A DNA stretch of 58,661 nt. It comes from Aquipuribacter sp. SD81 (lineage in GTDB: Bacteria > Actinomycetota > Actinomycetes > Actinomycetales > JBBAYJ01). The position numbers and the translations under genes are program-made. Positions 23,709 to 57,904 of this stretch are shown piece after piece. The notes below the pieces were generated by a model, which had not been told where the DNA came from, did not search any database, and worked only from the letters and a program-made list of their open reading frames with translations. The DNA is taken from assembly GCF_037153975.1 (NCBI RefSeq), contig NZ_JBBAYJ010000021.1, positions 24,815-83,475 of the forward strand, written 5' to 3'. Position 1 is the first letter of the stretch. Each line of letters begins with the position of its first letter.

Positions 23709-26069
23709 GTGACAGACACCCACGACGCCGTGGCCTCCGTGCCCGGCGCCCCGGCGGGAGCCGCCGACCTCGGCCGCCTCAAGGTCGCCGAGCTCCAGGC
23801 CCTCGCCGCCCGCCTCGGCATCAGCGGGGCAGGCCGCCTGCGCAAGGCCGACCTGCTCGCCGCCGTGCGCGAGCGCACCGCCGGCTCCGGCACCAACGGC
23901 ACGGCGCGACCCGCCCGCGACGACGCGGCCGGCCGGCCGACGCCGGACGCCTCCGCGGCCGACGCCGCCGACGCCGCCGATGCCGAGGCCGCCGGGTCCG
24001 CGCCCACCCGCAGCCGCCGGTCGCCACGCGCCCGTGGCGAGCAGCAGCAGCTCACGACCGTCGACGAGCCCGCCGGGTCGTCGCAGGCGCCGGCCGCGTC
24101 GCCTGCGCAGGCGGCTGCGCGGGGGGGGGCCCCGCAGGACGACCGGCGGGGGTCCGGTCGGCAGTCCGCGCCGGAGTCCGGCCAGCAGCCCGGCCCGCAG
24201 TCCCGCCAGGAGTCCGGCGACCGGTCCCGGCAGGGGTCCGGAGGGCAGACCGGCGAGGAGCCGCGCGAGCCGTCCGGTGAGCAGCGGGAGCAGCCGTCGC
24301 GCAGCAGCCGCGACGAGGACGACGACCGTCGGCCGGTGAGCCGCGCCCGGCGGCGGGCGCAGCGCGACGCGGAGGCCGCCGTGCAGGAGGCCGTGCTCAA
24401 GGCCGAGCCGATCCTGCCGGACCTCCCGCCGCGCCGCGGCGAGGACTCCGGCCGCGACGGCGGGACCGGCCGCGACCGCCTCCGCGAGCGGCAGCAGGCG
24501 CGCCAGGACCGGCAGGCCGAGCTGCGTCAGGACCGTCAGGACCGTCAGGACCGTCAGGACCGTCAGGACCAGCGCCCGGACGGCCGCCAGGACCGCCAGC
24601 AGGACCGCCAGCAGGACCGCCAGCAGGACCGGCAGCAGGACCGTCAGCAGGACCGTCAGCAGGAGCCGCGGGACGACCGTCAGGACCGGGCGGACCGCCA
24701 GCCCGACCTGCGCCCGCAGGGCGGCCAGGACCGGAACGGCCCGCAGGACGACGACCTCGACGACGACCGCAACGGCCGCCGCCGGCGCGGCCGCAACCGC
24801 CAGCGCGACAAGCGCACGGGCCGTCGCGACCAGGTGGACCCGGAGCCGGAGGTCCGCGACGACGACGTGCTCGTGCCCGTCGCCGGCATCGTCGACATCC
24901 TCGACAACTACGCCTTCGTCCGGACCAGCGGCTACCTGCCGGGTCCGCACGACGTCTACGTCTCGCTCGGGCAGGTCAAGAAGTACGGCCTGCGCAAGGG
25001 CGACGCGGTCGTCGGGCAGGTGCGCCAGGAGCGCCCGGGCGAGGAGCGGCGGCAGAAGTTCAACGCGCTCGTGCGCGTCGACACCGTCAACGGCACCTCG
25101 CCGGAGGACGCCCGCGGCCGCGACGAGTTCGGCAAGCTCACGCCGCTCTACCCGCAGAGCCGGCTGCGGCTGGAGACCGAGCCCAACCAGCTGACGACGC
25201 GGATCATCGACCTCGTCGCTCCCATCGGCAAGGGCCAGCGCGGGCTCATCGTGTCCCCGCCCAAGGCGGGCAAGACGCTCGTGCTGCAGGCGATCGCCAA
25301 CGCGATCACCCGCAACAACCCCGAGTGCCACCTCATGGTCGTCCTCGTGGACGAGCGTCCCGAGGAGGTCACCGACATGCAGCGGACGGTCAAGGGAGAG
25401 GTCATCGCCTCGACCTTCGACCGGCCCGCCGACGACCACACGACGGTCGCCGAGCTCGCCATCGAGCGGGCCAAGCGCCTCGTCGAGCTCGGCCACGACG
25501 TCGTCGTGCTGCTCGACTCCATCACCCGCCTCGGCCGCGCGTACAACCTCGCGGCGCCCGCGAGCGGGCGGATCCTGTCCGGCGGCGTCGACTCCAGCGC
25601 CCTGTACCCGCCGAAGCGGTTCTTCGGGGCCGCGCGCAACATCGAGAACGGCGGCTCGCTCACGATCCTCGCCACCGCGCTCGTGGAGACCGGCTCCAAG
25701 ATGGACGAGGTCATCTTCGAGGAGTTCAAGGGCACCGGGAACATGGAGCTGCGGCTGTCGCGGCAGCTCGCCGACAAGCGGATCTTCCCCGCGGTCGACG
25801 TCAACGCCTCCGGCACCCGGCGCGAGGAGATCCTGCTGGCCGGCGACGAGCTCACGATCATGTGGCAGCTGCGTCGCGTGCTCGGGGCGCTCGAGCAGCA
25901 GCAGGCCGTCGAGCTGCTGCTCGACCGGCTCCGCAAGTCCCGCAGCAACACCGAGTTCCTCCTGACGGTCGGCAAGACCTCGCCGTCGGGGCCGGGCATG
26001 ACGCTGCACGGGGCCACCGGGGACCGCCCGCACGACCGGCAGCACAACGGGAACAGCCACGACCACTGA
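23709..26069 (+). CDS. rho: Transcription termination factor Rho (with long disordered N-terminal insert)
   Basis: A 786-residue hexameric RNA helicase for factor-dependent termination. Order: SAP-like Rho_N helices ([20 protein letters not shown], about residues 18-55), then a roughly 320-residue Gln/Arg/Asp-rich insert, an RNA-binding cold-shock-like domain ([20 protein letters not shown], from about residue 386), Walker A PPKAGKT near residue 515, Walker [17 protein letters not shown], and the R-loop region. Large inserts of this kind are characteristic of actinobacterial Rho and are reported to add RNA affinity. The GTG at 23709 has GGAAGG upstream. Tandem QDR/QQDR repeats occupy residues 273-318. 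Confidence 0.97.
24525..24665 (+). repeat. Tandem 9-bp and 12-bp repeats inside rho
   Basis: Five 9-bp units (caggaccgt type) followed by about six 12-bp units (cagcaggaccgt type) encode (QDR)5 and (QQDR)6 within the disordered insert. Both periods are multiples of three. Confidence 0.92.
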
Positions 26070-45188: not shown

Positions 45189-46409
45189 ATGGTCTCCGTC
45201 ATCGTCGCCGGCGCCCGCACCCCGATGGGCCGCCTGCAGGGGTCGCTGTCCACCCTCACCGCACCGGTCCTCGGCGGTGCCGCCGTCCGTGCCGCGCTCG
45301 AGCGCTCCGGCCTGGCCCCCGAGGACGTCGACCACGTCGTCATGGGCCAGGTCCTGCAGGCGGGCGTCGGGCAGTCGCCCGCGCGCCAGGCGGCCGTCGC
45401 GGGCGGGCTGCCGATGTCGGTCCCCGCGACGGCGGTCAACAAGGTGTGCCTGTCGGGCCTGCACGCGGTCGTGGTCGCCGACCTCATGATCCGCGCCGGG
45501 CTCGCCGACGTCGTCGTCGCGGGTGGCACCGAGTCGATGTCCCAGGCGCCGCACCTGCTGCCCGGCAGCCGCTCGGGCCACACCTTCGGCGACGTCGCGC
45601 TGCTCGACCACATGGCCCACGACGGCCTGCGCGACACCTTCACCGCGCAGGCGATGGGCGGGCTCACCGACGCCGCCAACACCCCCGGGACCCCCGAGAA
45701 CGCCGAGCGGCCCGTCTTCACCCGCGAGCAGCAGGACGCCTTCGCCGCGCGCTCGCACCAGCGCGCCGCGGCGGCGTGGAAGGACGGCCGCTTCGCCGAG
45801 GAGGTCGTGCCGGTCGAGGTGCCGCAGCGCCGTGGCGACCCGGTCGTCGTCACCGAGGACGAGGGCGTGCGCCCGGACACGACGGTGGAGTCCCTCGCCC
45901 GGCTGCGCCCGGCCTTCCGGGCCGACGGCACGGTGACGGCCGGCTCGGCCTCGCAGATCTCCGACGGCGCGGCCGCGCTCGTCGTGGCGCGCAAGGAGCT
46001 CGTGGAGTCCCGCGGCCTGCCGTGGCTGGCGGAGGTCGGGGAGTCCGGGAGCGTGGCCGGCCCGGACTCCACGCTGCAGACCCAGCCGTCGGCGGCCATC
46101 CGGGCGGCGTGCGCCCGCGCGGGTGTCGACCCGGCGCGCCTGGACCGCTACGAGATCAACGAGGCCTTCGCCGTCGTCGGTCTCGCCTCGGTGCAGGACC
46201 TGGGGCTGCCCGAGGAGGTGGCCGACGCCCGGGTCAACGTCAACGGCGGCGCCATCGCGCTCGGGCACCCCATCGGGATGTCGGGGGCGCGGCTGCTGCT
46301 CACCCTCGCCCTCGAGCTGCGCCGCACCGGCGGCGGTACCGGCGCCGCCGCGCTGTGCGGTGGCGGCGGCCAGGGCGACGCCCTGCTGCTGCACGTCCCG
46401 CGCACCTGA
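45189..46409 (+). CDS. Acetyl-CoA C-acetyltransferase (thiolase)
   Basis: A 406-residue biosynthetic-type thiolase. The nucleophilic cysteine is in [15 protein letters not shown], near residue 88. NEAFAVVGL carries the NEAF motif. [16 protein letters not shown] carries the catalytic His. The C-terminal [12 protein letters not shown] carries the second catalytic Cys. It condenses or cleaves acetoacetyl-CoA or longer 3-ketoacyl-CoA; the in-vivo direction is not shown by sequence. The stop overlaps meaB (TGATG). The mce-thiolase-meaB arrangement is conserved in actinobacteria. Confidence 0.95.
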
Positions 46410-47392
46410 TGGGCGGCCGCGCCCGGCGGGCCCGTCACCTCGACGTGCCCGCCGAGCTGGCCGCGGCCCGCAGCGGCTCCCACCGTGCCGTGGCCCGCCT
46501 GGTCTCGGTCGTGTCCGACGGCGGCCCGCAGCTGCGGGAGGTCGCCGCGGCGCTCGCCGACGGCTCGGGCGAGGCGGCGTGGGTGCTCGGCGTCACCGGC
46601 TCCCCGGGGGTCGGGAAGTCGACGACGGTCTCGGCGCTCGTCACCGCCCTGCGAGCCGACGGGCTGCGGGTCGGCGTGCTCGCGGTCGACCCGTCGTCGC
46701 CGTTCTCCGGCGGCGCCCTGCTCGGGGACCGGGTGCGGATGGGCGACCACGCGCTCGACGACGGCGTCTACGTGCGCTCGATGGCCTCCCGCGGGCACCT
46801 CGGCGGCCTCGCCGCCGCGACCCCGCAGGCGGTGCGCGTGCTCGAGGCGGCGGGCGTCGACGTCGTCGTCGTGGAGACCGTGGGGGTCGGGCAGAGCGAG
46901 GTCGAGGTGGCCGCGCTCGCCGACACGACAGTCGTCCTGCTCGCCCCCGGCATGGGCGACGGCGTGCAGGCGGCGAAGGCGGGCATCCTCGAGGTCGCCG
47001 ACGTGCTCGTCGTCAACAAGGCCGACCGCGACGGGGCCGACGCGACCGTGCGGGAGCTGCGGCAGTCCGTCGCGCTCGGCGGGGACGCCCGCGCCCCCGG
47101 CGAGTGGCGGCCCACCGTCGTGCGGACCGTGGCCGCGGGCGGCGACGTCGAGGAGCTGGTGCAGGCGCTGCACGCGCACCGGGCGTGGGCCCGCGACCAC
47201 GACGCGGTCGCGCCGCGGCGCCTGCGCCGGGCGGCGGCCGAGGTGAGCGCGATCGCGCTCGGCCGGCTCCGGCAGACCTTCGGGCGGGCAGGGGAGGGCG
47301 GCCTCCTCGACGACGTCGCCGGGCGGGTCGCCGCCCGGACGCTCGACCCCTTCGCCGCCGCCGACCGGCTCGTCGCGGCGGTCGAGGGCTGA
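46409..47392 (+). CDS. meaB: MeaB-family G-protein chaperone of acyl-CoA mutase
   Basis: A 327-residue G3E GTPase (MMAA/ArgK type) that loads and protects adenosylcobalamin-dependent mutases. Walker A is GVTGSPGVGKST (about residues 62-73). The Mg/switch region is AVDPSSPFSGGALLGDRVRM, with SMASRGHLGGL behind it. The Walker B/switch III region is DVVVVETVGVGQSEVEV, and the base-recognition motif is NKADRDGA. Coupled to the thiolase gene, it can serve icmA in this window and any methylmalonyl-CoA mutase elsewhere. Confidence 0.95.
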   Translation: MGGRARRARHLDVPAELAAARSGSHRAVARLVSVVSDGGPQLREVAAALADGSGEAAWVLGVTGSPGVGKSTTVSALVTALRADGLRVGVLAVDPSSPFSGGALLGDRVRMGDHALDDGVYVRSMASRGHLGGLAAATPQAVRVLEAAGVDVVVVETVGVGQSEVEVAALADTTVVLLAPGMGDGVQAAKAGILEVADVLVVNKADRDGADATVRELRQSVALGGDARAPGEWRPTVVRTVAAGGDVEELVQALHAHRAWARDHDAVAPRRLRRAAAEVSAIALGRLRQTFGRAGEGGLLDDVAGRVAARTLDPFAAADRLVAAVEG

Positions 47393-47418
47393 GCGCGGCC
47401 CCCGGGCACGACCGGCCG

Positions 47419-47424
47419 TAGCCT
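47419..47424 (+). promoter_or_regulatory. Leaderless -10 of the thiamine-binding-type gene
   Basis: TAGCCT, a 6-nt spacer (GCGACG), then the GTG at 47431. Confidence 0.55.
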
Positions 47425-47430
47425 GCGACG

Positions 47431-47754
47431 GTGCTCGTCGCCTTCTCCGTCGCCCCGTCCACCGCCGGCCCCGACGGCTCGGTCTCCGAGTCCGTCGCCG
47501 ACGTCGTCCGCCTCGTGCGGGACTCGGGCCTGCCCCACCGCACCGACGCCATGTTCACGACGGTCGAGGGCTCGTGGGAGGAGTGCATGGACCTCGTGCG
47601 GCGCTGCGTCGAGGTCCTCGCCGCCACGGCGCCACGCGTGTCGCTCGTGCTCAAGGCCGACGTGCGGCCCGGGCGCACCGGCGAGCTCGACGGCAAGCTC
47701 GAGCGGCTCGAGGCGGCGCTGGAGCGGCGCGGCGGCGAGCCCGGCCCGGCGTAG
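47431..47754 (+). CDS. MTH1187/YqgV family thiamine-binding protein
   Basis: A 107-residue ferredoxin-like protein. The pattern MLVAFSVAPSTAG, VSESVADVVRLVRDSGLPHRTDAMFTTVEGSWEECMDLVRRCVEVL and VSLVLKADVRPGR is that of the MTH1187 family; YkoF-like members bind thiamine or its precursors. Its cellular role is unknown. It is monocistronic and ends at twin hairpins. Confidence 0.88.
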   Translation: MLVAFSVAPSTAGPDGSVSESVADVVRLVRDSGLPHRTDAMFTTVEGSWEECMDLVRRCVEVLAATAPRVSLVLKADVRPGRTGELDGKLERLEAALERRGGEPGPA

Positions 47755-47775
47755 GCCACGGGCCGGCGGGCAGGG

Positions 47776-47815
47776 GGGCGCACGGCGACGGGCAGGGGGT
47801 CGTCGCCGTGCGCCC
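47776..47815. terminator. Perfect 15-bp hairpin terminator (first of two)
   Basis: GGGCGCACGGCGACG (47776-47790), a 10-nt loop, then CGTCGCCGTGCGCCC (47801-47815). It is 21 nt downstream of the thiamine-binding-type gene. There is no T-tail. Confidence 0.8.
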
Positions 47816-47820
47816 GGAGG

Positions 47821-47853
47821 GGGCCCGGCCGGGAAGGGGGACCGGCCGGGCCC
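47821..47853. terminator. Perfect 12-bp hairpin terminator (second of two)
   Basis: GGGCCCGGCCGG (47821-47832), a 9-nt loop, then CCGGCCGGGCCC (47842-47853). It is 12 nt downstream (on the minus strand) of the EAL gene stop, so it faces the convergent signalling operon. Confidence 0.8.
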
Positions 47854-47865
47854 GCACGGGGAGGT

Positions 47866-49356
47866 CTAGGAGGCGGCGCGCACCTCGTCGGGCTCTGGGT
47901 CGTGGGCCACCAGGTCCTCGCCGAACGCCAGCGGCGAGAGCGGGCCGGTGACGGCGGCCGGGACGGGCGCGAGCGGACCGAGCCGGCCGGAGACCTCGAG
48001 GTGCTCGGCGCTCGCCGGTCGCTGGAAGTGGAAGCCCTGCCCCCGGTGGCAGCCGAGGCCCCGCAGGACCGAGGCCTGCCGGGCCGTCTCCACGCCCTCG
48101 CCCACCACGTCGAGGCCGAGGCCGCGCGCGAGCCGCACCACGGACTCCACGAGCAGGCCGTCCCGCCGGTCGACGCCGAGGCCGCGGACGAAGCTCTGGT
48201 CCACCTTGAGCCGCGTGACGGGGAAGCGCCGCAGGTAGGTGAGCGTGGAGTAGGCCGTGCCGAAGTCGTCGAGGGCGAGGCCGACCCCCAGGTCGCGGAC
48301 GGCCTGCAGCTGGGCGACCGTGCCCGCGTCCCCGGAGGCGACGAGGACGGTCTCGGTGAGCTCGAGGGTGAGGGCGTGCGCCGGCAGCCCGCTGCTCTCC
48401 AGGGCCGTCTCGACGAGCTCCACGAGCGAGCCGGTCTCCAGGTGGCGGCCGGACACGTTGACCGACAGCTCGAGGTCGGCGGTGTCCGGTCGGGTGCGGC
48501 GCCAGTGCTGCACCTGGTGGCAGGCCTCCTCCAGCACGAGGGCGTCGACGGCGAGGACGAGGTGCTCCTGCTCGGCCTCGGGCAGGAACTCCCCGGGCTG
48601 CAGCAGCCCGAGGGTCGGGTGCTCCCAGCGCACGAGGGCCTCCACACCCGTCGTGCGCCCGTCGGCCAGCGTCACGATCGGCTGGTAGAACGGCACGATC
48701 TCGCCGGCCGCGAGACCGCCCGCGACGTCGAGCGGTTCGGTCGCGGCCCGGGGCCCCGACCCGGCGGCGGAGCCGGGACCGTGGGGTGCGCGCTGGGTGG
48801 GCACGTCCGTCGCCACGGCCGGCGACGTCGCGGCGAGGAGGGCGCGGGCGCCCCCGAGGTCCTCGGCGAGGGTGAGGGCGAGGTGCGACTCCGCGAGCAG
48901 CGCGAGCTCCCGCAGCAGCTCGCGCTGGCTCGCGTCCAGGTGGCGGGGCGAGGTGTCGAAGACGCAGAAGGCACCGAGCGGGAGGCCGTCGGCGGCGTGC
49001 AGCGGGACGCCGTGGTACGAACGCAGCCCCTCCGCGACGAGGTCGCCGTCGCGGAAGCGCGAGTCGCCCGCGAGGTCCGGGACCGACAGCGCCGCGTCCG
49101 CCGCGACGGCCCAGGCGCACATCGTCTGCACCCGTGGCCGCGTGGCGCCGCGGCGCTCGCCGCGGGCCGCGACGACGTGCGTCTCCGTCTCGTCGACGAG
49201 CGTGACGGTCGCGACGGGGACGCCGAGCAGCCGCGCCCCCATCGTCGTGAGCGTCCGCAGGACCGGGTCGTCCCCGCAGCGCTCGGCGACGGCGCGCTGC
49301 GCCTGCACCGCCAGCAGCCGCCGCGCCTCCTCGGGGTGCACCGGGACGCGACTCAC
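47866..49356 (-). CDS. GAF-EAL protein (probable c-di-GMP phosphodiesterase)
   Basis: A 496-residue cytoplasmic protein. The GAF-type sensor occupies about residues 20-165 (LGVPVATVTLVDETETHVVAARG, CAWAVAADAALSVPDLAGDSRF, SYHGVPLHAADGLPLGAFCVFD). The EAL domain spans about 225-470. Its catalytic residues look intact: GVEALVRWEHP, ELSVNVSGRHL, LTLELTETV, LDDFGTAYS, LKVDQSFV and GEGVET. No GGDEF domain is attached. It should hydrolyse c-di-GMP in response to a GAF ligand. The GTG at 49356 overlaps the stop of the degenerate receiver gene (GTGA). Confidence 0.93.
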   Translation of the reverse strand: MSRVPVHPEEARRLLAVQAQRAVAERCGDDPVLRTLTTMGARLLGVPVATVTLVDETETHVVAARGERRGATRPRVQTMCAWAVAADAALSVPDLAGDSRFRDGDLVAEGLRSYHGVPLHAADGLPLGAFCVFDTSPRHLDASQRELLRELALLAESHLALTLAEDLGGARALLAATSPAVATDVPTQRAPHGPGSAAGSGPRAATEPLDVAGGLAAGEIVPFYQPIVTLADGRTTGVEALVRWEHPTLGLLQPGEFLPEAEQEHLVLAVDALVLEEACHQVQHWRRTRPDTADLELSVNVSGRHLETGSLVELVETALESSGLPAHALTLELTETVLVASGDAGTVAQLQAVRDLGVGLALDDFGTAYSTLTYLRRFPVTRLKVDQSFVRGLGVDRRDGLLVESVVRLARGLGLDVVGEGVETARQASVLRGLGCHRGQGFHFQRPASAEHLEVSGRLGPLAPVPAAVTGPLSPLAFGEDLVAHDPEPDEVRAAS

Positions 49357-49805
49357 GACGTCACCTGCGCGAGGGCGGGACGGTCGGCGCCCGGTCGGGG
49401 GGTGCCGGGGGACGGGGTGAGCCCGACGGTTCGCAGGTGACGCAGCAGGCTCGCGCGGGTGAGGCGTCGCCGGGGCAGGGCCGAGTCGACCGCGGGGTCG
49501 GGTGCGTCGAGCTGGAGGTCGCTCACGCTCAGCAGGTGTACGCGGGCGCCGTCGGGGAGCCCGGCCCGCACGTCGTGGGCCGGGGTGCGCGCGGGGTCGA
49601 AGGCGACGACGAGCACGCCGGGGGCCTCGCGCAGCCACAGCCGCACCTGCTCGGGACGGGGGACCGCCAGGGGCAGGAGCTCGGCCGGCGCGGCGGCGAG
49701 CACGTGGTGGCGTACGTTCTCGTCGGGGTGGACCACGACGAGGACGGGCCCGCCCGGTGGCTCCGGGGTCGGCTCGAGCTCGAGCACTCGGGGGGCGCTG
49801 TCCAC
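49353..49805 (-). CDS. Degenerate receiver-like small protein
   Basis: A 150-residue protein I do not recognise by family. Its alternating pattern resembles a response-regulator receiver: GPVLVVVHPDENVRHHVLAAA (beta1), GVLVVAFDPARTP (beta3 with one Asp), ARVHLLSVSDL (beta4), then ALPRRRLTRASLLRHLRTVGL, which resembles alpha5. The acidic pair after beta1 is replaced by HPDE, and the invariant Lys of beta5 is missing. It is followed, in a GTGA overlap, by the GAF-EAL gene, and so may deliver protein-protein control instead of phospho-signalling. The GTG at 49805 has no clear Shine-Dalgarno. Confidence 0.5.
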   Translation of the reverse strand: MDSAPRVLELEPTPEPPGGPVLVVVHPDENVRHHVLAAAPAELLPLAVPRPEQVRLWLREAPGVLVVAFDPARTPAHDVRAGLPDGARVHLLSVSDLQLDAPDPAVDSALPRRRLTRASLLRHLRTVGLTPSPGTPRPGADRPALAQVTS

Positions 49806-49880
49806 GCCAGGAGGGTCCCGCGGCCACCTGTGGCGAACCTGAGGCGGGCGGCCGCGGTCCGCGCCAGGTCGGACGGCCCG

Positions 49881-50546
49881 TCAGCCGAGCCGGTAGCCGA
49901 CCCCGCGGACCGTCCGCAGGACGGGCTCCGGGAAGGGCCGGTCGAGCTTCGCGCGGACGGCGGACACGAGGACGTCCAGCGCGTTGGGCGTCACGTCGGC
50001 GGCGAAGTCCCAGAGGTGGGCGGCGATCGTGTCGCGGTGCACGATGCGCCCCCCGTGGCGGGCGAGCAGCTCCACCAGCGCGTACTCGCGGCCCACCAGC
50101 GGCACCGGCACCCCCGCTCGGGACACCGCGCGCGTGGCCGGGTCGACGACGACCTCACCCACCTCCAGCCGCAGCAGGACCTCGCGCTCGCCGCGACGGG
50201 CCACCGCCCGCAGCCGGGCGCCGAGCTCGGCGAGGTGGAAGGGCTTCGCGAGGTAGTCGTCCGCGCCGCTGTCGAGGCCGCGGACGCGGTCGGCGACGTC
50301 CGAGCGCCCCGTCAGCATGACGACGGGGGTGGCGTCGCCGGCCTCGCGCAGCCGGGCGCACACGGTGAAGCCGTCCACGCCCGGCAGGTCGACGTCGAGG
50401 ACGACCGCGTCGTACGTCTGCTCCGTCGCCAGCCACAGCGCGTCCTCGCCGTCCTGCAGCAGGTCGACGACGTGCCCCTCGCCCTGCAGCTGCTCCAGCA
50501 GCAGCGGGCCCAGGTCCGGGTCGTCCTCGACCAGCAGCAGCCTCAT
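49881..50546 (-). CDS. OmpR/PhoB-family response regulator
   Basis: A 221-residue two-domain regulator. The receiver starts MRLLLVEDDPDLGPLLLEQL. The phospho-acceptor is in AVVLDVDLPGVDGF, the Thr in VVMLTGRSD, and the Lys in YLAKPFHLAELGARL. The C-terminal winged helix ends ALDVLVSAVRAKLDRPFPEPVLRTVRGVGYRL. The ATG at 50546 overlaps the kinase stop (ATGA), so the cognate kinase is almost certainly the gene upstream. Targets are unknown. Confidence 0.95.
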   Translation of the reverse strand: MRLLLVEDDPDLGPLLLEQLQGEGHVVDLLQDGEDALWLATEQTYDAVVLDVDLPGVDGFTVCARLREAGDATPVVMLTGRSDVADRVRGLDSGADDYLAKPFHLAELGARLRAVARRGEREVLLRLEVGEVVVDPATRAVSRAGVPVPLVGREYALVELLARHGGRIVHRDTIAAHLWDFAADVTPNALDVLVSAVRAKLDRPFPEPVLRTVRGVGYRLG

Positions 50547-52807
50547 GGCGCGAGCAGCTCCCGGACGGCCGCGAGCAGGGCGCGCGGGCGGAACGGCTTG
50601 GCGAGGAACGGCCCGTCGACCTCCTCGCCACGACCGGACACGAGCAGCACGGGCAGGTCCGGTCGCTCCCGCGCCAGCCGCGCACGCAGCGTCCGGCCGT
50701 CCGTCCCGGGCATGTGGACGTCGCTGACGACGAGGTCCAGGGAGGGGCCCATCGCCCGGGCGAGCAGCAGCGCCTTGTCGCCGTCGGCCGCCTCGAGCAC
50801 CGTGTGCCCGGCCGCCCGCAGGGTCGCGGCGACCACGTCGAGCACGTCGGGGTCGTCGTCCACGACGAGTGTGGTCGGGCCCGGGCCCGCCGGTGCCGGG
50901 GGCGCGTCCTGGTCCGGACCGGCGTCGGGGCTGCTGCCGCGCGTCCCCCCCGGGTCGGCGCCGCCGTCGGGCGCCAGCGGCAGCAGCAGCGTGAACGTCG
51001 TCCCGACGCCCTCGCGGCTGCTGACCCGGAGGTCGCCGCCGCTCTGCCGCGCGATGCCGAAGGCGGTCGACAGGCCGAGGCCGTGCCCGCCCCGGCCGTG
51101 CCGGGTCGTGAAGAACGGCTCGAAGCAGCGGCGCAGCACCGGCTCGCTCATGCCGACGCCGTCGTCGGACACCGACACCGCCGCGTAGCGCGTCGCCCGC
51201 AGCTCGTGGCCGCGGGCGAGCGCGAGGGACGCGGCGTCGGCGTCCCCGCCGGGGGCCTCGTGCCCGGTGACGACCACCGTGCCGCCGTCGGGGAGCGCGT
51301 CGCGGGCGTTGAGCACGAGGTTGAGGACCACCTGCTGCACCTGGGCGTGGTCGGCCCGCACCGGCAGCACCGGCAGGACCCCCAGCTCCAGCCGCACCGT
51401 GCCCGGCAGCAGCCGACGGCACATGTCGGCGAGGTCGTGCACGGCCGCACCGAGGTCGAACGTCGTCGGCTCGAGCTCCTGCTGCCGGGAGAAGGCGAGC
51501 AGCCGGTCGACGAGGTCGCGGGCCCGGGCGACCGCCCGGTGGATGCCGGCGAGGTGACGGGCCGGCGAGCCCGTCGCCGGCACGTGCGGCTCGAGGAGGT
51601 CGGCGTACCCGCCCACCGCGGCCAGCACGTTGTTGACGTCGTGCGCGATGCCTCCGGCCACGGCCCCCACCGCCTCGAGCCGCTCGGACTCCACCAGCCG
51701 CGCCTGCAGCTCCCGCACCGGGGACAGGTCGCGGACGATGAAGGAGACGGTCGAGCCGTCGTTGAGCACCGTGGCGCTCGCGAGGACGGGCACCGCGCGG
51801 CCGTCGAACCGACGGAGCTCGCCGTCGACCTCGATCGAGCGACGACCCGCCTCGACCGCCGCCCCGAGCCCCGCGGCCCAGCCCTCGGGGTCGACGACGA
51901 GGTCGCCCGTGTCGCTGGCGAGCACCTGCTCGACGCTGCCGCCGAGGAGCGCGGCGAAGGCGTCGTTGCACTCCAGGACGCGGTGGGTGGTGCCGGAGGC
52001 GACGCACTGGCCGAGCGTGGTCCCGGCGAAGATGTCGCGGTAGAGCGCCCGGCTCGCGGCGAGCTCGCGCTCGGCCGTCTTCTGCTCGCTGATGTCGGTG
52101 TGGATGGCCGCGACGCCGAGCAGGTCCCCGCTCGCCTGGTAGACCGGGAAGCGCGTCGACAGGTACGTCCGCTCGAGGCCGTCGACCGGGACCACCTCCT
52201 CGGTGGTCCGGCTGCGACGGGTGCGCGCGACCTCGGCCGTCGTCTCGCGCGAGGCGGTGGCGACGGAGGGTGCGTAGACCTCGCCGACGTCCCGTCCGAC
52301 CATCTCGGCGGGGTCGCTCGCGGCCTGCCGGGCGGCGGCGGCGTTGACGTACAGGAAGCGGCCGTCGGCGTCCTTGACGGTGACACCCACCGGGGCGCGG
52401 TTGACGAGCTGGGTGAGGACGGCGAGGTCGGCGATGTCGCTGAGGCTGTGGCGCCGCTCGGCGGTGACGTCGGAGAACAGCACCGTGATGCCCGCCCGGC
52501 ACGGCAGGACCTGCGAGCGGAACCAGCGGTCCCACGGCTCGTAGAGGTTGTCGACGGTCTCGGGCACACCGGTGGCGAGGACCCGCCGGTAGGCCAGCTC
52601 GAAGGCCGAGCCGGCGTCGTCGGGGAACTCGCGCCGGTAGTCGCGCCCGACGAGCGAGGCCGCGCTCCGGCCGAGCAGCCCGGCCGCGGCCGGGTTGACG
52701 TACCGGTACCGCCAGTCGCGGTCGATGACGACGAGCCCGAGCGCGAGGTCGTCCCACGCCCTGACCAGCTCCGTCGCGTCGCCCCCGGTCGTGCGGGAGT
52801 CGCTCAT
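50543..52807 (-). CDS. PAS-domain hybrid sensor histidine kinase
   Basis: A 754-residue soluble-type kinase with no obvious membrane helix. Three PAS domains are visible at about residues 12-120 (DLALGLVVIDRDWRYRYVNPAAAGLLG), 130-250 (RAPVGVTVKDADGRFLYVNAAAA) and 260-370. The HisKA helix carries the phospho-accepting His in GGIAHDVNNVLAAVGG near residue 389. HATPase motifs follow: VLNLVLNARDAL (N box), VSDDGVGMSE (G1), GHGLGLSTAFGI (G2). A C-terminal receiver has Asp in LVVSDVHMPGTDG near residue 694 and Lys in FLAKPFRP. The ATG at 52807 has AAGGAGGGG upstream. It heads the minus-strand signalling operon. Confidence 0.94.
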   Translation of the reverse strand: MSDSRTTGGDATELVRAWDDLALGLVVIDRDWRYRYVNPAAAGLLGRSAASLVGRDYRREFPDDAGSAFELAYRRVLATGVPETVDNLYEPWDRWFRSQVLPCRAGITVLFSDVTAERRHSLSDIADLAVLTQLVNRAPVGVTVKDADGRFLYVNAAAARQAASDPAEMVGRDVGEVYAPSVATASRETTAEVARTRRSRTTEEVVPVDGLERTYLSTRFPVYQASGDLLGVAAIHTDISEQKTAERELAASRALYRDIFAGTTLGQCVASGTTHRVLECNDAFAALLGGSVEQVLASDTGDLVVDPEGWAAGLGAAVEAGRRSIEVDGELRRFDGRAVPVLASATVLNDGSTVSFIVRDLSPVRELQARLVESERLEAVGAVAGGIAHDVNNVLAAVGGYADLLEPHVPATGSPARHLAGIHRAVARARDLVDRLLAFSRQQELEPTTFDLGAAVHDLADMCRRLLPGTVRLELGVLPVLPVRADHAQVQQVVLNLVLNARDALPDGGTVVVTGHEAPGGDADAASLALARGHELRATRYAAVSVSDDGVGMSEPVLRRCFEPFFTTRHGRGGHGLGLSTAFGIARQSGGDLRVSSREGVGTTFTLLLPLAPDGGADPGGTRGSSPDAGPDQDAPPAPAGPGPTTLVVDDDPDVLDVVAATLRAAGHTVLEAADGDKALLLARAMGPSLDLVVSDVHMPGTDGRTLRARLARERPDLPVLLVSGRGEEVDGPFLAKPFRPRALLAAVRELLAP

Positions 52808-52825
52808 CGTGCGCCCCTCCTTGCC

Positions 52826-52844
52826 CGTCACCTCCCCGGTGACG
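52826..52844. promoter_or_regulatory. Inverted repeat just upstream of the hybrid kinase gene
   Basis: CGTCACC, a TCCCC spacer, then GGTGACG make perfect 7-bp arms. It sits about 20 nt before the kinase ATG, next to its Shine-Dalgarno, and could be an operator of the operon's own response regulator or a leader hairpin. Confidence 0.4.
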
Positions 52845-52903
52845 ACCGCCCCCAGCGGATGATGGCGCATGACCGGCGGATCGCGGCAGTCCCCGCAGGA
52901 CGG

Positions 52904-52909
52904 CAGGAT
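52904..52909 (+). promoter_or_regulatory. Possible leaderless -10 of the TspO-like gene
   Basis: CAGGAT, an 8-nt spacer, then the ATG at 52918. This is one of the weaker matches. Confidence 0.35.
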
Positions 52910-52917
52910 GGGCGGCC

Positions 52918-53784
52918 ATGACCAGTCGCGACGTCGCGCCGCCGTCCGGCCCGCCGGGGCAGCCCGGGACGGGCACGGACCCGACCACGGGTGGTCCCGC
53001 CACCCGGTACGGACGGTGGGACGTCGCGCGGGCGGTCGCGGTGGCCGTCACCGCGCTCGCGCAGGTCCTCGGCAGCCCGCTCGGCGCGGCGCTGCCCGGC
53101 GCCTCCGACGTCGGTGCGGTCTCCGACCGCTGGCAGACGGTCATCACCCCCGCGGGCTCGACCTTCGCCGTCTGGGGGGTGATCTTCGCCGGCTGCCTCG
53201 CCTACGCCGTCTACCAGGCGCTGCCGGCCCAGCTCGCCCGCGACGTCCACCGCCGGGCGGGCTGGCCGCTCGCGGTCGCCTTCGCCGCCAACACCGCCTT
53301 CGAGCTCGTGTTCCCGCAGGACGGCACCGCCGTGCTCGTCGGCAACGGCCTCGTCGTGCTGTCGGTCGTGGCGGCGGGGGTCGCCGTCGCGCGGCTGCAG
53401 GTCCCGCCCACGTACGGCGTGGCGCGCGTGCTGCCCGGTGTCGTGGCGCCGCTGCTGCTCGGCTGGGTGACGTTCGCGACGGTCGCCAACGTCGCCCTGT
53501 CCGGGGTGCTGCTCGGGGCACCGGACTCCGGCGGCCTGGCGCGCGCCGCCGGGATCGTCGCGCTCGTCGCCGCGGCCGCCGTGGTGCTCGACGTCGGGCT
53601 GCGGCTGCGCGGCGGCACGACGGCCTTCGTGCTGCCCGCCGCGTGGGGCGCCTACGGCGTCACGCTCGCGGACCCGCCGTTCGCGGTGGCGGTCGCGGCG
53701 TGGGTCGCGCTGGCGGTCATGCTCCTCGCGGTGCCGGTGCAGCTGTACCGCACGCGCGACGTCGGTCGCGTGCTGCTGTCCTGA
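52918..53784 (+). CDS. TspO/tryptophan-rich sensory protein-like membrane protein
   Basis: A 288-residue protein with about seven hydrophobic helices after a Pro/Gly-rich 35-residue N-terminus. The region ITPAGSTFAVWGVIFAGCLAYAVYQAL, followed by RAGWPLAVAFAANTAFELVFPQ, resembles the tryptophan-rich sensory (TspO/MBR) proteins of actinobacteria, which bind porphyrins or other hydrophobic ligands. The match rests on this segment only, so the call is moderate. The ATG at 52918 is used. It is divergent from the kinase operon and ends convergent with the beta-propeller gene, 37 bp away, with nothing notable between. Confidence 0.55.
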   Translation: MTSRDVAPPSGPPGQPGTGTDPTTGGPATRYGRWDVARAVAVAVTALAQVLGSPLGAALPGASDVGAVSDRWQTVITPAGSTFAVWGVIFAGCLAYAVYQALPAQLARDVHRRAGWPLAVAFAANTAFELVFPQDGTAVLVGNGLVVLSVVAAGVAVARLQVPPTYGVARVLPGVVAPLLLGWVTFATVANVALSGVLLGAPDSGGLARAAGIVALVAAAAVVLDVGLRLRGGTTAFVLPAAWGAYGVTLADPPFAVAVAAWVALAVMLLAVPVQLYRTRDVGRVLLS

Positions 53785-53821: not shown

Positions 53822-56014
53822 TCAGCCGAGGTCGACGTCGGTGACGGGCTCGAGGGTGCGGGCGTCGAGGACGGTGAGGCCCCGGGTGGCTCCGCCGTCC
53901 CCGTCGCCGTCCCAGCGCTCGACGGTCACGAGGACCTGGTCCCCGGCCGCGGCGAGCGCCGAGAGGTACCCCGCGCGCTCGCCGTCCCAGCGGCCCGACT
54001 CCGTCAGCCCGCCGGCCGGGTCCACGGCGACGGCCACGAGGCCCGAGGAGCCGTCGCCCCCGGCCCAGGTGTCGAGCGGGACCACCGCCGTCCGCAGGTC
54101 GGGCAGGTAGGCGAAGCGGCGGCTGTCCTGCTCGACCGGGCTGGCGCTGTCGGGCCAGACGAGGCGGTCGACGTCGGTCGGGGCGGCGAGGTCGCGCAGG
54201 TCGTAGGTCTCGACCTTCGCCCCGGACAGGACGCCCTCCTGGTCGCCCTCCTGTCCCACCCCCAGGAGCAGGCCGTCGCCGACGGGGTGCAGGTAGCCGG
54301 AGTAGCCGGTCACCTTCAGCTCGCCGAGCACCCGCGGCCGCGCGGGGTCTGCGAGGTCGACGGTGTAGAGCGGGTCCGTCTGCTCGAAGGTGACGACGAC
54401 GGCGAGGTCGTCGAACCAGCGCAGCGACCGGATCTGCTCCCCGGGCCCGAGCCCGTCGACCCGACCGGTCTCGACGAGGCCGTCGCCGGTCTCGGTGAGC
54501 ACGACCACGCTCGACGTCGTGCGCGGCGGCGCCGGCGCGCCCGAGGGCCCGGGCGGCGCCTCGTCGGGGCCCGGCGCCTCCAGCGTCGTGCCCACGCGCA
54601 GGGTGCCGTCGTGGGCGTCCATCGCCCACTGCCCGAGCAGCCACCCCTCGACCTGCCCGGAGCCGAGGTAGGCGGTGTCGCGGGGGTCGCTCGTGTCGAA
54701 GCCGTGCAGCTGGGTGCGGACGGGCTCGGTGCGGCCCGGACCGCCCGCCCACGGCCACCCCCACAGCCATCCGCCGCGGGTCGTGGCGACGTACAGCCGG
54801 TCCGCGGTCGCGTGCACGTAGGACCCGTCGGCGCTCACGGCGGTGGTGTCGAGCAGCACGGAGCCCGCCCCGGCGGCCGGGTCGAGCGTGAGGACGCCGA
54901 TCGTCCCGAGGCCGGCGGGGCCGTCGACGGGGTGGGCGACGTCCTCGCACGCGACGGGTCGGCGCGCCGTCACCGCGCCCGCGTCGTCGCGCTCGACGAG
55001 GTCGGGCAGCCACGCCGCGAGGTCGGCCTCCTCGACGACGGCCCGGTTGCGCGCCTCGGCCTCGGCGAGGGCCTCGTCGCTCGGGGAGCCGTCGCGGCGC
55101 GGGGTGCGCACGTCCTCCGGCGCACCGGGCTCCTGCATGACCTGCCACGGGTCGGTGAACCGCAGCGCGGGGGCGGTCGTCGTCACGAGCCGGGTCGTGC
55201 CCTCGGAGGCCCGGGCGGCGACGTAGGACCCCTCGACCTCGACGACGTCCACGACGCGGGGGTCGGCCGGGTCCGACACGTCGACCGTGGTCGCCGTCGT
55301 GGTCGGGGTGGAGGCCGGCCACCAGACGGCGTCGGCCACCCGGCCCGGCCCGGCCGCACCCGGCCCGTCCGCCGCGTCGCCCTGGTCCTCCTCCTCCGGC
55401 AGCGACGCCGAGCCGAGCACGACGACCCGGTCGCCGACGAGCAGCAGGTCGCTGAACCACGCCGTCGGCTCCGGTGCGGGCAGCGACAGCCCCGCCGGGT
55501 CGTCCGCCCCGGCGGCCGCCGGCCCCGCACCGGCCGAGTCGTCCGGTGCGAGCCGGACCCGACCGGCCACCTCACCGCGGTCGGTGTCGACCACGACCAG
55601 GTCCTCACCCGCGAGCGCCACCGCCCAGCGGCCGTCCGGGCCCGTCACCTTCAGCGGGCTGGGCTCGTCGACCCCGGCCTCCTGCACGTTCGTGCCGGTC
55701 GAGGACGAGCCGACCGCCTCCCCGGTCCGGGCGGCGCCGGCGTCCGCCGCCGTGTCCGCGCCCGCCATGGTCTCCGCCGCCTCCGCCACCGCGACCGGGC
55801 CGCCCTCCCCGAGCCCGTAGGGCCCCACCTGCTCCGCGGCGGCGTCCCGGTACCAGCCGAGGAGTTCCTCGCACGAGCCGAAGGGCTCGAGGGTCGCGGC
55901 GGCCGCGCCGGGCGCGGCGGCGAGGTCGGCGGCGACGACGCCGCCGGTCACGACGAGGGCACCGGCGGCCACGACGGCGGCGGTGCGGGTACGGGTCCTG
56001 CGGCGTGCGTCCAC
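53822..56014 (-). CDS. Secreted beta-propeller domain protein
   Basis: A 730-residue exported protein. The Sec signal begins VDARRRTRTRTAAVVAAGALVVTGGVVAADLAAAPGAAAA, with a likely cleavage after AAA. Residues from about 105 match the actinobacterial/archaeal Beta_propel family: TNVQEAGVDEPSPLKVTGPDGRW, VDVSDPADPRVVDVVEVEGSYVAARAS, TQLHGFDTSDPRDTAYLGSGQVEGWLLGQWAMDAHDGTLRVGTT and LYTVDLADPARPRVLGELKVTGYSGYLHPVGDGLLLGVGQ. The repeated D-x-SDPxxPR blades support a propeller. The function is unknown. The GTG at 56014 has GGGAGGT 5 nt upstream. Confidence 0.87.
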   Translation of the reverse strand: MDARRRTRTRTAAVVAAGALVVTGGVVAADLAAAPGAAAATLEPFGSCEELLGWYRDAAAEQVGPYGLGEGGPVAVAEAAETMAGADTAADAGAARTGEAVGSSSTGTNVQEAGVDEPSPLKVTGPDGRWAVALAGEDLVVVDTDRGEVAGRVRLAPDDSAGAGPAAAGADDPAGLSLPAPEPTAWFSDLLLVGDRVVVLGSASLPEEEDQGDAADGPGAAGPGRVADAVWWPASTPTTTATTVDVSDPADPRVVDVVEVEGSYVAARASEGTTRLVTTTAPALRFTDPWQVMQEPGAPEDVRTPRRDGSPSDEALAEAEARNRAVVEEADLAAWLPDLVERDDAGAVTARRPVACEDVAHPVDGPAGLGTIGVLTLDPAAGAGSVLLDTTAVSADGSYVHATADRLYVATTRGGWLWGWPWAGGPGRTEPVRTQLHGFDTSDPRDTAYLGSGQVEGWLLGQWAMDAHDGTLRVGTTLEAPGPDEAPPGPSGAPAPPRTTSSVVVLTETGDGLVETGRVDGLGPGEQIRSLRWFDDLAVVVTFEQTDPLYTVDLADPARPRVLGELKVTGYSGYLHPVGDGLLLGVGQEGDQEGVLSGAKVETYDLRDLAAPTDVDRLVWPDSASPVEQDSRRFAYLPDLRTAVVPLDTWAGGDGSSGLVAVAVDPAGGLTESGRWDGERAGYLSALAAAGDQVLVTVERWDGDGDGGATRGLTVLDARTLEPVTDVDLG

Positions 56015-56203: not shown

Positions 56204-57904
56204 ATGGACGCGCGCGCACGGTGGCAGGCCCGCTTCGACGCCGCGGCGGCCGCGGGCAGGGTCCGCGAGGCCGACTTCACGACGCTGTCCGGCGACGAGG
56301 TCGACCCGGTCTACGGCCCGCCGGGCGACGACGTCGACCCGCGGATCGGCTGGCCGGGGGAGTACCCCTTCACCCGCGGCCTGCACAGCACCGGCTACCG
56401 CGGGCGGGCGTGGACGATCCGGCAGTTCGCGGGCTTCGGCAACGCCGCGCAGTCCAACGAGCGCTACAAGCTCATCCTCGCCCGGGGCGGCGGCGGGCTC
56501 TCGGTCGCCTTCGACATGCCGACCCTCATGGGCCGGGACTCCGACGACCCCCGCAGCGTCGGCGAGGTCGGGCACTGCGGCGTCGCGATCGACTCCGCGG
56601 CCGACATGGAGGTCCTCTTCGACGGCATCCCGCTCGACGAGGTGACGACGTCGATGACGATCTCCGGGCCCGCCGTCCCGGTGTTCTGCATGTACCTCGT
56701 CGCCGCCGAGCGGCAGGGCGTCGACACGCGCCGGCTCGACGGCACGCTGCAGACCGACATCTTCAAGGAGTACATCGCGCAGAAGGAGTGGCTCTTCGCC
56801 CCGGAGCCGCACCTGCGCCTCATCGGCGACCTGCTGCAGCACTGCACGACCGAGGTGCCCCGCTTCAAGCCCGTCAGCGTGTCGGGCTACCACATCCGCG
56901 AGGCCGGCTCCACGGCCGCGCAGGAGCTCGCCTTCACCCTGGCCGACGGCTTCGCGTACGTGGAGCTCGGCCTGTCGCGCGGCCTCGACGTCGACGCGTT
57001 CGCCCCCGGGCTGTCGTTCTTCTTCGACGCCCACATCGACCTGTTCGAGGAGGTCGCGAAGTTCCGTGCGGCCCGTCGGATCTGGGCGCGGTGGCTGCGC
57101 GACCGCTACGGCGCGACCAGCGAGCGGGCGCAGTGGCTGCGCTTCCACACCCAGACCGCCGGGGTGTCGCTGACGGCGCAGCAGCCGTACAACAACGTCG
57201 TGCGCACCGCCGTGGAGGCGCTCGCAGCGGTGCTCGGCGGCACCAACAGCCTCCACACCAACGCCCTCGACGAGACCCTCGCCCTGCCGAGCGAGCAGGC
57301 GGCGGAGATCGCCCTGCGCACGCAGCAGGTGCTGGCCGAGGAGACCGGGGTGGCGAACGTCGCCGACCCGCTCGGCGGCAGCTGGTACGTCGAGGCGCTC
57401 ACGGACCGTCTCGAGGCCGACGCCGAGCGCATCTTCGCCCGGATCGAGGAGATGGGCGAGGCCGGCCGCGAGCGGGACGCCGACGGCCGTGTGCCGCACG
57501 AGGTCGGGCCCATGACCTCCGGCGTGCTGCGTGGCATCGAGGACGGCTGGTTCCTGTCCGAGATCGCCGACGCGTCCTTCGCCTACCAGACGGCGCTGGA
57601 GAAGGGCGACAAGCGGGTCGTCGGCGTCAACTGCCACACCGGCTCCGTGAGCGCGCCGCTGGAGATCCTGCGCGTCGGGCACGAGGTGGAGACCGAGCAG
57701 GTCGCCGCGCTCGCCCGGCGGCGCGCCGCCCGCGACGACGCCGCGGTCCGCTCCGCGCTCGCCGCCATGGTGCAGGCGGCCCGCGACGGCTCCGACCTGG
57801 TCGCGCCGATGCTCGACGCGTGCCGCGCGGAGGCGACGCTCGGCGAGGTGTGCGGCGTGCTGCGCGAGGAGTGGGGCGGCTACACCGAGCCCGCGCGCTT
57901 CTAG
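56204..57904 (+). CDS. icmA: Isobutyryl-CoA mutase large subunit (acyl-CoA mutase, substrate-binding barrel only)
   Basis: A 566-residue adenosylcobalamin-dependent mutase barrel that interconverts isobutyryl-CoA and n-butyryl-CoA. The length equals streptomycete IcmA. The C-terminal B12-binding domain of methylmalonyl-CoA mutase is absent, so a separate small subunit (IcmB) is needed and is not in the window. Specificity residues agree with IcmA: Phe75 (in TIRQFAGF), where MCM has Tyr89, and Gln193 (in YIAQKEW), where MCM has Arg207. Ala102 fits IcmA Ala107, not the Asp117 of 2-hydroxyisobutyryl-CoA mutase. SGYHIREAG carries the conserved His. CAGGAGGC precedes the ATG. MeaB and the adenosyltransferase in this window would serve it. 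Confidence 0.93.
   Translation: MDARARWQARFDAAAAAGRVREADFTTLSGDEVDPVYGPPGDDVDPRIGWPGEYPFTRGLHSTGYRGRAWTIRQFAGFGNAAQSNERYKLILARGGGGLSVAFDMPTLMGRDSDDPRSVGEVGHCGVAIDSAADMEVLFDGIPLDEVTTSMTISGPAVPVFCMYLVAAERQGVDTRRLDGTLQTDIFKEYIAQKEWLFAPEPHLRLIGDLLQHCTTEVPRFKPVSVSGYHIREAGSTAAQELAFTLADGFAYVELGLSRGLDVDAFAPGLSFFFDAHIDLFEEVAKFRAARRIWARWLRDRYGATSERAQWLRFHTQTAGVSLTAQQPYNNVVRTAVEALAAVLGGTNSLHTNALDETLALPSEQAAEIALRTQQVLAEETGVANVADPLGGSWYVEALTDRLEADAERIFARIEEMGEAGRERDADGRVPHEVGPMTSGVLRGIEDGWFLSEIADASFAYQTALEKGDKRVVGVNCHTGSVSAPLEILRVGHEVETEQVAALARRRAARDDAAVRSALAAMVQAARDGSDLVAPMLDACRAEATLGEVCGVLREEWGGYTEPARF

Follow-up and report, generated by a model that had tools for sequence, protein, structure and literature searches.

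What links a two-component system to the enzyme of cyclic di-GMP (c-di-GMP) turnover that is encoded beside it, and what might a small protein of no assignable family do between the two? These questions are raised by four consecutive genes on the minus strand of a 58.7-kb stretch of the genome of Aquipuribacter sp. SD81 (58,661 nucleotides; positions 24,815 to 83,475 of contig NZ_JBBAYJ010000021.1), which was analysed as a whole and is referred to below as the window. In reading order, they encode a hybrid histidine kinase of 754 amino acids (50543-52807), an OmpR-family response regulator of 221 amino acids (49881-50546), a 150-amino-acid protein without any family (49353-49805), and a GAF-EAL protein of 496 amino acids (47866-49356). 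We propose that they form a genus-restricted two-component system which may have its own c-di-GMP output via an internal promoter; judged from the sequence, the chances for and against this reading appear about equal to us.

Conservation of the operon

The four signalling genes had been named in a first-pass annotation of the window, and they were borne out by the open reading frames, the sequence, and the Pfam domains. The ATGA overlap between the kinase and regulator genes, the GTGA overlap between the genes for the 150-residue and the GAF-EAL protein, and the 75-bp gap between these two pairs, all described there, are equally real. We compared three congeners, which are the sole members of the family in our collection and all belong to one genus: the window's own genome (G000; 3.86 Mb, 69 contigs), G001, and G002. 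The four-gene order is not unique to the window. G002 carries the same genes in the same order and with both overlaps, in flanks that are syntenic on both sides, and the Pfam domains are the same apart from small PAS differences. Amino acid identities between G000 and G002 amount to 76% for the regulator, 64% for the EAL protein, 62% for the kinase, and 51-59% for the 150-residue protein, depending on the alignment. The gap from the regulator gene to the 150-residue gene measures 93 bp in G002.

The operon is absent from G001, which yielded no match to the 150-residue protein or the kinase, and only distant regulator matches (47% identity or less) and EAL-domain matches. On contig C183 of this genome, the gene for a thiamine-binding protein ends at 1351 and that for a membrane protein starts at an in-frame ATG at 1413, which leaves 61 bp where G000 has 5163 bp (47755-52917, of which the operon takes up 4942 bp); both neighbour genes are kept. 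The operon lies within a neighbourhood kept across the congeners. The flanking genes place G000 and G002 closer to each other than to G001, as identity to G000 is 87% in G002 versus 82% in G001 for meaB and 71% versus 63% for the membrane protein. Either a gain in the ancestor of G000 and G002 or a loss in G001 is possible. The G+C content of the operon (76.6%) is similar to that of its flanks (76.7-78.0%).

Outside the genus, the 150-residue protein was sought with a profile at E 0.001. Among 396 genomes of the order, four were matched: G000, G002, and two with marginal hits, which we rejected. Among 394 genomes of the class, a draw that overlaps with the first and evidently left out G002, G000 was the sole match. 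Nine candidates were scored per genome among the matches listed, so distant relatives may escape these counts. The neighbours of the two marginal matches (L051, E 9.2e-4; L050, E 7.8e-4) included no EAL protein, kinase, or similar when inspected by eye, no family search having been run on them. A 25-residue match in Streptomyces blattellae (L002) was discarded as an unrelated low-complexity translation in that frame. No match to the 150-residue protein was found among 72,556 plasmid records. For the kinase, a threshold of E 1e-70 left two of the 396 genomes of the order, which both belong to this genus; two candidates were scored per genome among the matches listed, and weaker relatives are uncounted. 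We also considered a second copy of the module in G002. The next-nearest OmpR proteins there (53% and 45% identity) adjoin non-hybrid kinases, and no EAL domain was seen at these two loci in eight chosen frames, a survey that is not exhaustive.

A direct repeat between the gene pairs

The gap between the gene pairs contains, at 49826-49843 on the minus strand, a conserved direct repeat with an 11-bp period (CAGGT, six further positions, CAGGT), which we regard as a candidate binding site of the OmpR protein. It ends 20 nt before the start codon of the 150-residue gene in G000 (CTCAGGTTCGCCACAGGT) and 21 nt before it in G002 (CTCAGGTTCCCGACAGGT), with 16 of its 18 positions identical between the two genomes. 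None of 2000 simple shuffles gave an ungapped match as good as the best one between the two gaps. The exact pattern occurs once in each of the two carrying genomes and is absent from the genome of G001. Because this conserved repeat sits in the gap, it suggests that the second gene pair is a target of the first. We consider the case for a regulatory site moderate, since it depends on conservation, position, and rarity jointly.

The spacing has a parallel. PhoP belongs to the OmpR/PhoB family. According to the available text, as for all literature cited here, the PhoP boxes of Streptomyces consist of 11-nt direct repeat units (PMC6283541). The 9-bp direct repeats of M. tuberculosis PhoP (PMC3413638) and the 11-bp repeats of Streptomyces antibiotic regulatory proteins (PMC3367932) were not used for the argument. 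In both carrying genomes, inspection by eye showed an A-N3-T, a possible -10 element, near the spot for a leaderless GTG start. G001 contains ten inexact matches to the repeat, nine of them differing from it at 3 positions and one at 2.

Kinase, regulator, and phosphodiesterase

Above the Pfam cut-offs, the kinase shows three PAS stretches, HisKA, HATPase_c, and a C-terminal Response_reg domain, in agreement with the three PAS domains and the receiver first attributed to it. Its phosphorylatable histidine is H389, located within an HDVNN box, and its own receiver retains the acidic residues 650-652, D696, and K737. It is probably soluble, because no 19-residue window exceeds a hydropathy of 1.6. 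The nearest NCBIfam names are CckA-type kinases, far under the cut-off (296 versus 1000 bits). The regulator combines Response_reg and Trans_reg_C, likewise above the cut-offs, and 62 of the 74 residues of its DNA-binding domain are identical between G000 and G002. By domains and motifs, the two proteins constitute a two-component system of a hybrid kinase and an OmpR-family regulator.

A hybrid sensor is expected to require a histidine-containing phosphotransfer (HPt) domain for reaching another receiver (PMC3842833). The Pfam Hpt model had no match in the kinase and a single match in G000, located in a CheA-type protein. Of the two routes to the regulator, we favour direct phosphorylation by the kinase over transfer via an undetected HPt.

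The GAF-EAL protein is likely an active c-di-GMP phosphodiesterase. Pfam assigned GAF and EAL domains, the latter with an E value of 1.2e-65. An alignment with EAL domains of known structure spans the length of this EAL domain, which has the expected catalytic motifs E, N, E, DD, K, and E (EALVRW starting at 239, NVSGR at 300, ELTET at 332, DDFGTA at 363, LKVDQ at 383, and VGEGVET at 418). A GGDEF partner had been described as missing nearby, and a scan for GG[DE][DE]F in six frames of the window was indeed empty, although a degenerate GGDEF domain is invisible to such a scan. The c-di-GMP network of the organism is probably large, because the EAL query returned 18 matches at E 1e-20 or better in G000, the gene of the operon included.

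Two further observations made by eye concern the start of the kinase gene. The upstream interval of the window (52808-52917) contains the inverted repeat GTCACC-GGGGA-GGTGAC, and in G002 (L034:13894-13976) a TAGCGT lies where a -10 element would be expected if the kinase gene had a leaderless start at its GTG.

The 150-residue protein

The open reading frame of 150 residues is a real gene by comparative sequence evidence, because its frame has the lowest ratio of nonsynonymous to synonymous differences (pN/pS) among the six frames when G000 and G002 are compared (0.36/0.51; nonsynonymous rate dN 0.49, synonymous rate dS 0.85), and because 32 of the 42 residues at positions 88-129 are identical. 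It evolves fastest among the four genes, and at its two ends no more than 6 residues out of 18 and 14 out of 21 could be aligned at all. The protein had no match in Pfam at E up to 1 (most matches above 0.1 being dropped by the program), in NCBIfam at E up to 0.1, or among the PDB sequences. A home-made profile of six receivers, including the operon's own two, gave -0.4 bits for the protein and -1.1 bits for its G002 counterpart, while the best of 1000 shuffled copies reached 7.5. With no signal against this profile, an origin by duplication of the operon's own receivers was dropped.

Structure prediction pointed, at low confidence, to a receiver-like fold. AlphaFold2 was given a two-row alignment, and the models of the window protein and its G002 counterpart both follow the order β-α-β-α-β-α-β-α, in which strands and helices alternate as far as strand 4 and the last helix closes the chain; the fourth helix and the fifth strand are not clearly formed. 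In structure alignments with VIA, the best matches were DivK (Z 9.5; 99 residues, 3.0 Å) and a Dyadobacter receiver (Z 9.3; 98 residues, 2.4 Å), to be read with the program's own guidance that a best Z of 7 to 8 is common without a clear relative and that receivers are abundant in the PDB. By title, 48 of the 50 and 47 of the 50 matches listed for the two models are receivers or receiver-bearing proteins; the designed Rossmann protein 2kpo is among those listed for both. Foldseek put BaeR on top for the first model (E 0.048) and the dehydrogenase 3hg7 (E 0.03) before BaeR (E 0.056) for the second.

Three results speak against a receiver, and hence against the part that such a protein has in our proposal: the mean predicted local distance difference test (pLDDT) scores are low (59 and 68 in the models of the window protein and its G002 counterpart, respectively), Foldseek found no match at E 0.001 or better for either model, and the sequence comparisons lend no support to homology with receivers. 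On the models, we still consider a receiver-like fold likely. The earlier description of a receiver-like strand pattern is thus upheld by two models of the protein alone, but at low confidence and not at the level of sequence homology. The term "degenerate receiver" applies to the predicted fold, because sequence methods yield no homology to receivers.

Mapped by hand onto the predicted strands of these uncertain models, the position of the acidic pair is occupied by Val/His/Pro and that of the Lys by R113, which supports the loss of the acidic pair and the Lys that had been noticed at first. D70 at the end of strand 3 and S93 at the end of strand 4, placed in the same way, are kept in both genomes. 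Pseudo-receivers have been defined as receivers without at least one of DD, D, T, and K (PMC12632262), and the 150-residue protein would be one by this definition if the fold holds; it is not recognisable by a sequence profile. The idea that it could be an HPt protein was discarded in view of the strand-helix alternation seen in both models.

A proposed circuit and its alternatives

The circuit that we propose starts from features that are present in the DNA, namely the genes, their domains and intact active-site motifs, the conservation of order and overlaps, and the conserved, rare repeat. The soluble PAS-domain kinase would autophosphorylate and hand the phosphoryl group straight to the OmpR-type regulator. 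Its C-terminal receiver might serve as an internal brake or phosphate sink, since no HPt other than that of CheA was found for a relay. The phosphorylated regulator would bind the direct repeat between the gene pairs and switch an internal, possibly leaderless promoter of the 150-residue and GAF-EAL genes, whereby the signal would alter c-di-GMP breakdown through the quantity of the phosphodiesterase. The 150-residue protein would not be phosphorylatable in the ordinary way. We propose tentatively that it acts as a partner protein, in which case its most likely binding target would be the GAF-EAL protein (or the kinase), together with which it would be made. The binding, phosphotransfer, and promoter steps are all ones that we infer.

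Several findings about the repeat and its surroundings tell against this circuit as well. Loose matches to the repeat at 3 mismatches occur elsewhere in the carrying genomes (3 in G000 and 7 in G002), and the pattern read backwards, which served as a control, matched once in G000, five times in G001, and twice in G002. When the gaps were shuffled, some exact 5-mer pair at spacing 11 turned up in 14-17% of cases, a share that rose to 36-41% with spacings of 10-12. The similarity of the two gaps is partly due to descent, G000 and G002 being relatives; for comparison, the fourfold sites of the 150-residue gene are identical at 28 of 59 positions. A scan for sigma-70-type promoters and terminators found none, although such a scan is ill-suited to high-GC genomes. 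The kinase may depend on a relay via an HPt that Pfam misses because of its divergence, and contact between the 150-residue protein and the EAL protein is putative.

The overlap of the 150-residue and GAF-EAL genes had been read as a sign that the small protein directly controls c-di-GMP turnover. This does not follow, as the overlap suggests coupled translation only. Direct control would nevertheless be part of an explanation in which one transcript encodes all four proteins and the 150-residue protein attaches to the kinase, or to the kinase's receiver, and relays the signal by direct contact to the GAF-EAL protein, so that a receiver-EAL regulator would be split into two chains. The GTGA overlap in both genomes, the receiver-like predicted fold, and the strong conservation of residues 88-129 fit such a split, and receiver and EAL domains are known to occur in a single chain, as in RocR and in the PvrR response-regulator phosphodiesterase named in NCBIfam. 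However, the phosphorylation residues of the 150-residue protein are mostly gone by the hand mapping, the conserved site in the gap suggests a separate promoter, and the interaction with partners is putative, which makes the split regulator possible but doubtful. We regard as unlikely a further version in which the 150-residue protein represents a new small family and acts as a phosphorylation-free, receiver-like adaptor that sets GAF-EAL activity in trans, with an HPt-free hybrid kinase controlling c-di-GMP through both transcription (via the repeat) and protein contact.

The small protein might instead act on the kinase, leaving the OmpR protein and the EAL enzyme as the only outputs. A precedent is the receiver-containing VieB, which binds VieS and inhibits its autophosphorylation and phosphotransfer (PMC4352251). 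VieB, however, carries an Asp that can be phosphorylated as well as a TPR domain, whereas the 150-residue protein is, by the hand mapping, without most of the active site and too short for both domains, and its gene is coupled to that of the EAL protein rather than to the kinase gene; an inhibitor of this kind seems improbable to us. Finally, two separate units could be adjacent by chance, with a kinase and an OmpR protein that have their targets elsewhere and a 150-residue/EAL pair under other control. The gap of 75-93 bp, the many EAL genes of the genome, and the loose repeat matches elsewhere would agree with this, but the four genes are jointly present or absent across the three congeners and the repeat is located between the pairs, so that we see a still slimmer chance for mere adjacency. 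The internal promoter under control of the OmpR protein remains our preferred reading.

Comparison with described systems

The first-pass annotation knew of no described system with this combination. As far as we searched the literature, this holds for the exact four-part set, found in two species of one genus, but the type of wiring is known, with PvrSR/RcsCB, VieSAB, and CmrRST as near precedents. In the first of these, PvrR combines a receiver with an EAL domain, and RcsB does not belong to the OmpR type. The operon studied here has a GAF-EAL enzyme without a receiver plus a separate receiver-like protein, and it contains no receiver-EAL regulator with its own kinase beside a second kinase/regulator pair. 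PvrSR/RcsCB of the Pseudomonas aeruginosa island PAPI-1 resembles it in having four signalling genes in one predicted operon and in the combination of a hybrid sensor, a DNA-binding regulator, and a phosphodiesterase, and RcsB raises pvrR expression (PMC3842833). Unlike the single sensor found here, there are two sensors in that system, RcsC being unorthodox with its own HPt (PMC3842833).

The putative VieSAB operon of Vibrio cholerae likewise brings together a receiver-bearing kinase, an EAL phosphodiesterase, a DNA-binding output, and an auxiliary protein that bears a receiver (PMC4352251). It differs in that phosphodiesterase and DNA-binding domain reside in the single protein VieA, that VieS has an HPt, and that the Asp is retained in VieB, which also bears a TPR domain (PMC4352251). 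In the operon studied here, the EAL domain is not part of a receiver-helix-turn-helix regulator and the kinase has no Pfam Hpt match.

CmrRST of Clostridioides difficile shares a kinase, an OmpR-family regulator, and a pseudo-receiver-bearing atypical regulator in one operon (PMC12632262, PMC8844915, PMC12548384). CmrR autoactivates cmrRST, and a review proposes that a pseudo-receiver is controlled via its amount (PMC12632262). The available text mentions no EAL gene in this operon (PMC12632262, PMC8844915), and CmrT itself belongs to the OmpR family of regulators. The 150-residue protein differs from it in lacking an output domain. Rfam gave no match at the gathering threshold in 47500-53500, hence no CmrRST-like riboswitch was found. 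In Bordetella, the EAL gene bvgR lies downstream of bvgS and is virulence-activated, that is, under BvgAS (PMC11537037). In contrast to the likely enzyme described here, BvgR is stated not to be a phosphodiesterase, and the available text mentions no small receiver-like protein (PMC11537037).

New in this analysis are the conserved, 11-bp-spaced repeat in the gap and the finding that the sole HPt match lies in CheA. The repeat is a specific candidate site on the DNA through which a two-component system would be tied to a phosphodiesterase of its own, here in a genome of high G+C content. How pseudo-receivers switch "remains a mystery" according to a 2025 review (PMC12632262); if the fold holds, the operon would be a small example of a pseudo-receiver whose partner enzyme can be named, with a congener at hand in which the operon is missing. 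The reach of these results is that of two genomes of one genus.

Neighbouring genes

The divergent neighbour of the kinase gene (52918-53784, plus strand) encodes a 288-residue protein with strongly hydrophobic segments and without a Pfam match at E 0.01. This membrane protein is present in one copy in each of the three congeners, with 63-71% identity to the copy in the window. It is followed on the minus strand by the gene for a 730-residue protein with the Pfam domain Beta_propel (53822-56014), and open reading frames that resemble it by eye occupy the corresponding position in both G002 and G001. At one end, the operon is flanked by genes for a thiolase, MeaB, and the thiamine-binding protein (45189-47754); beyond its other end, a protein with a methylmalonyl-CoA-mutase domain is encoded further out (56315-57904).

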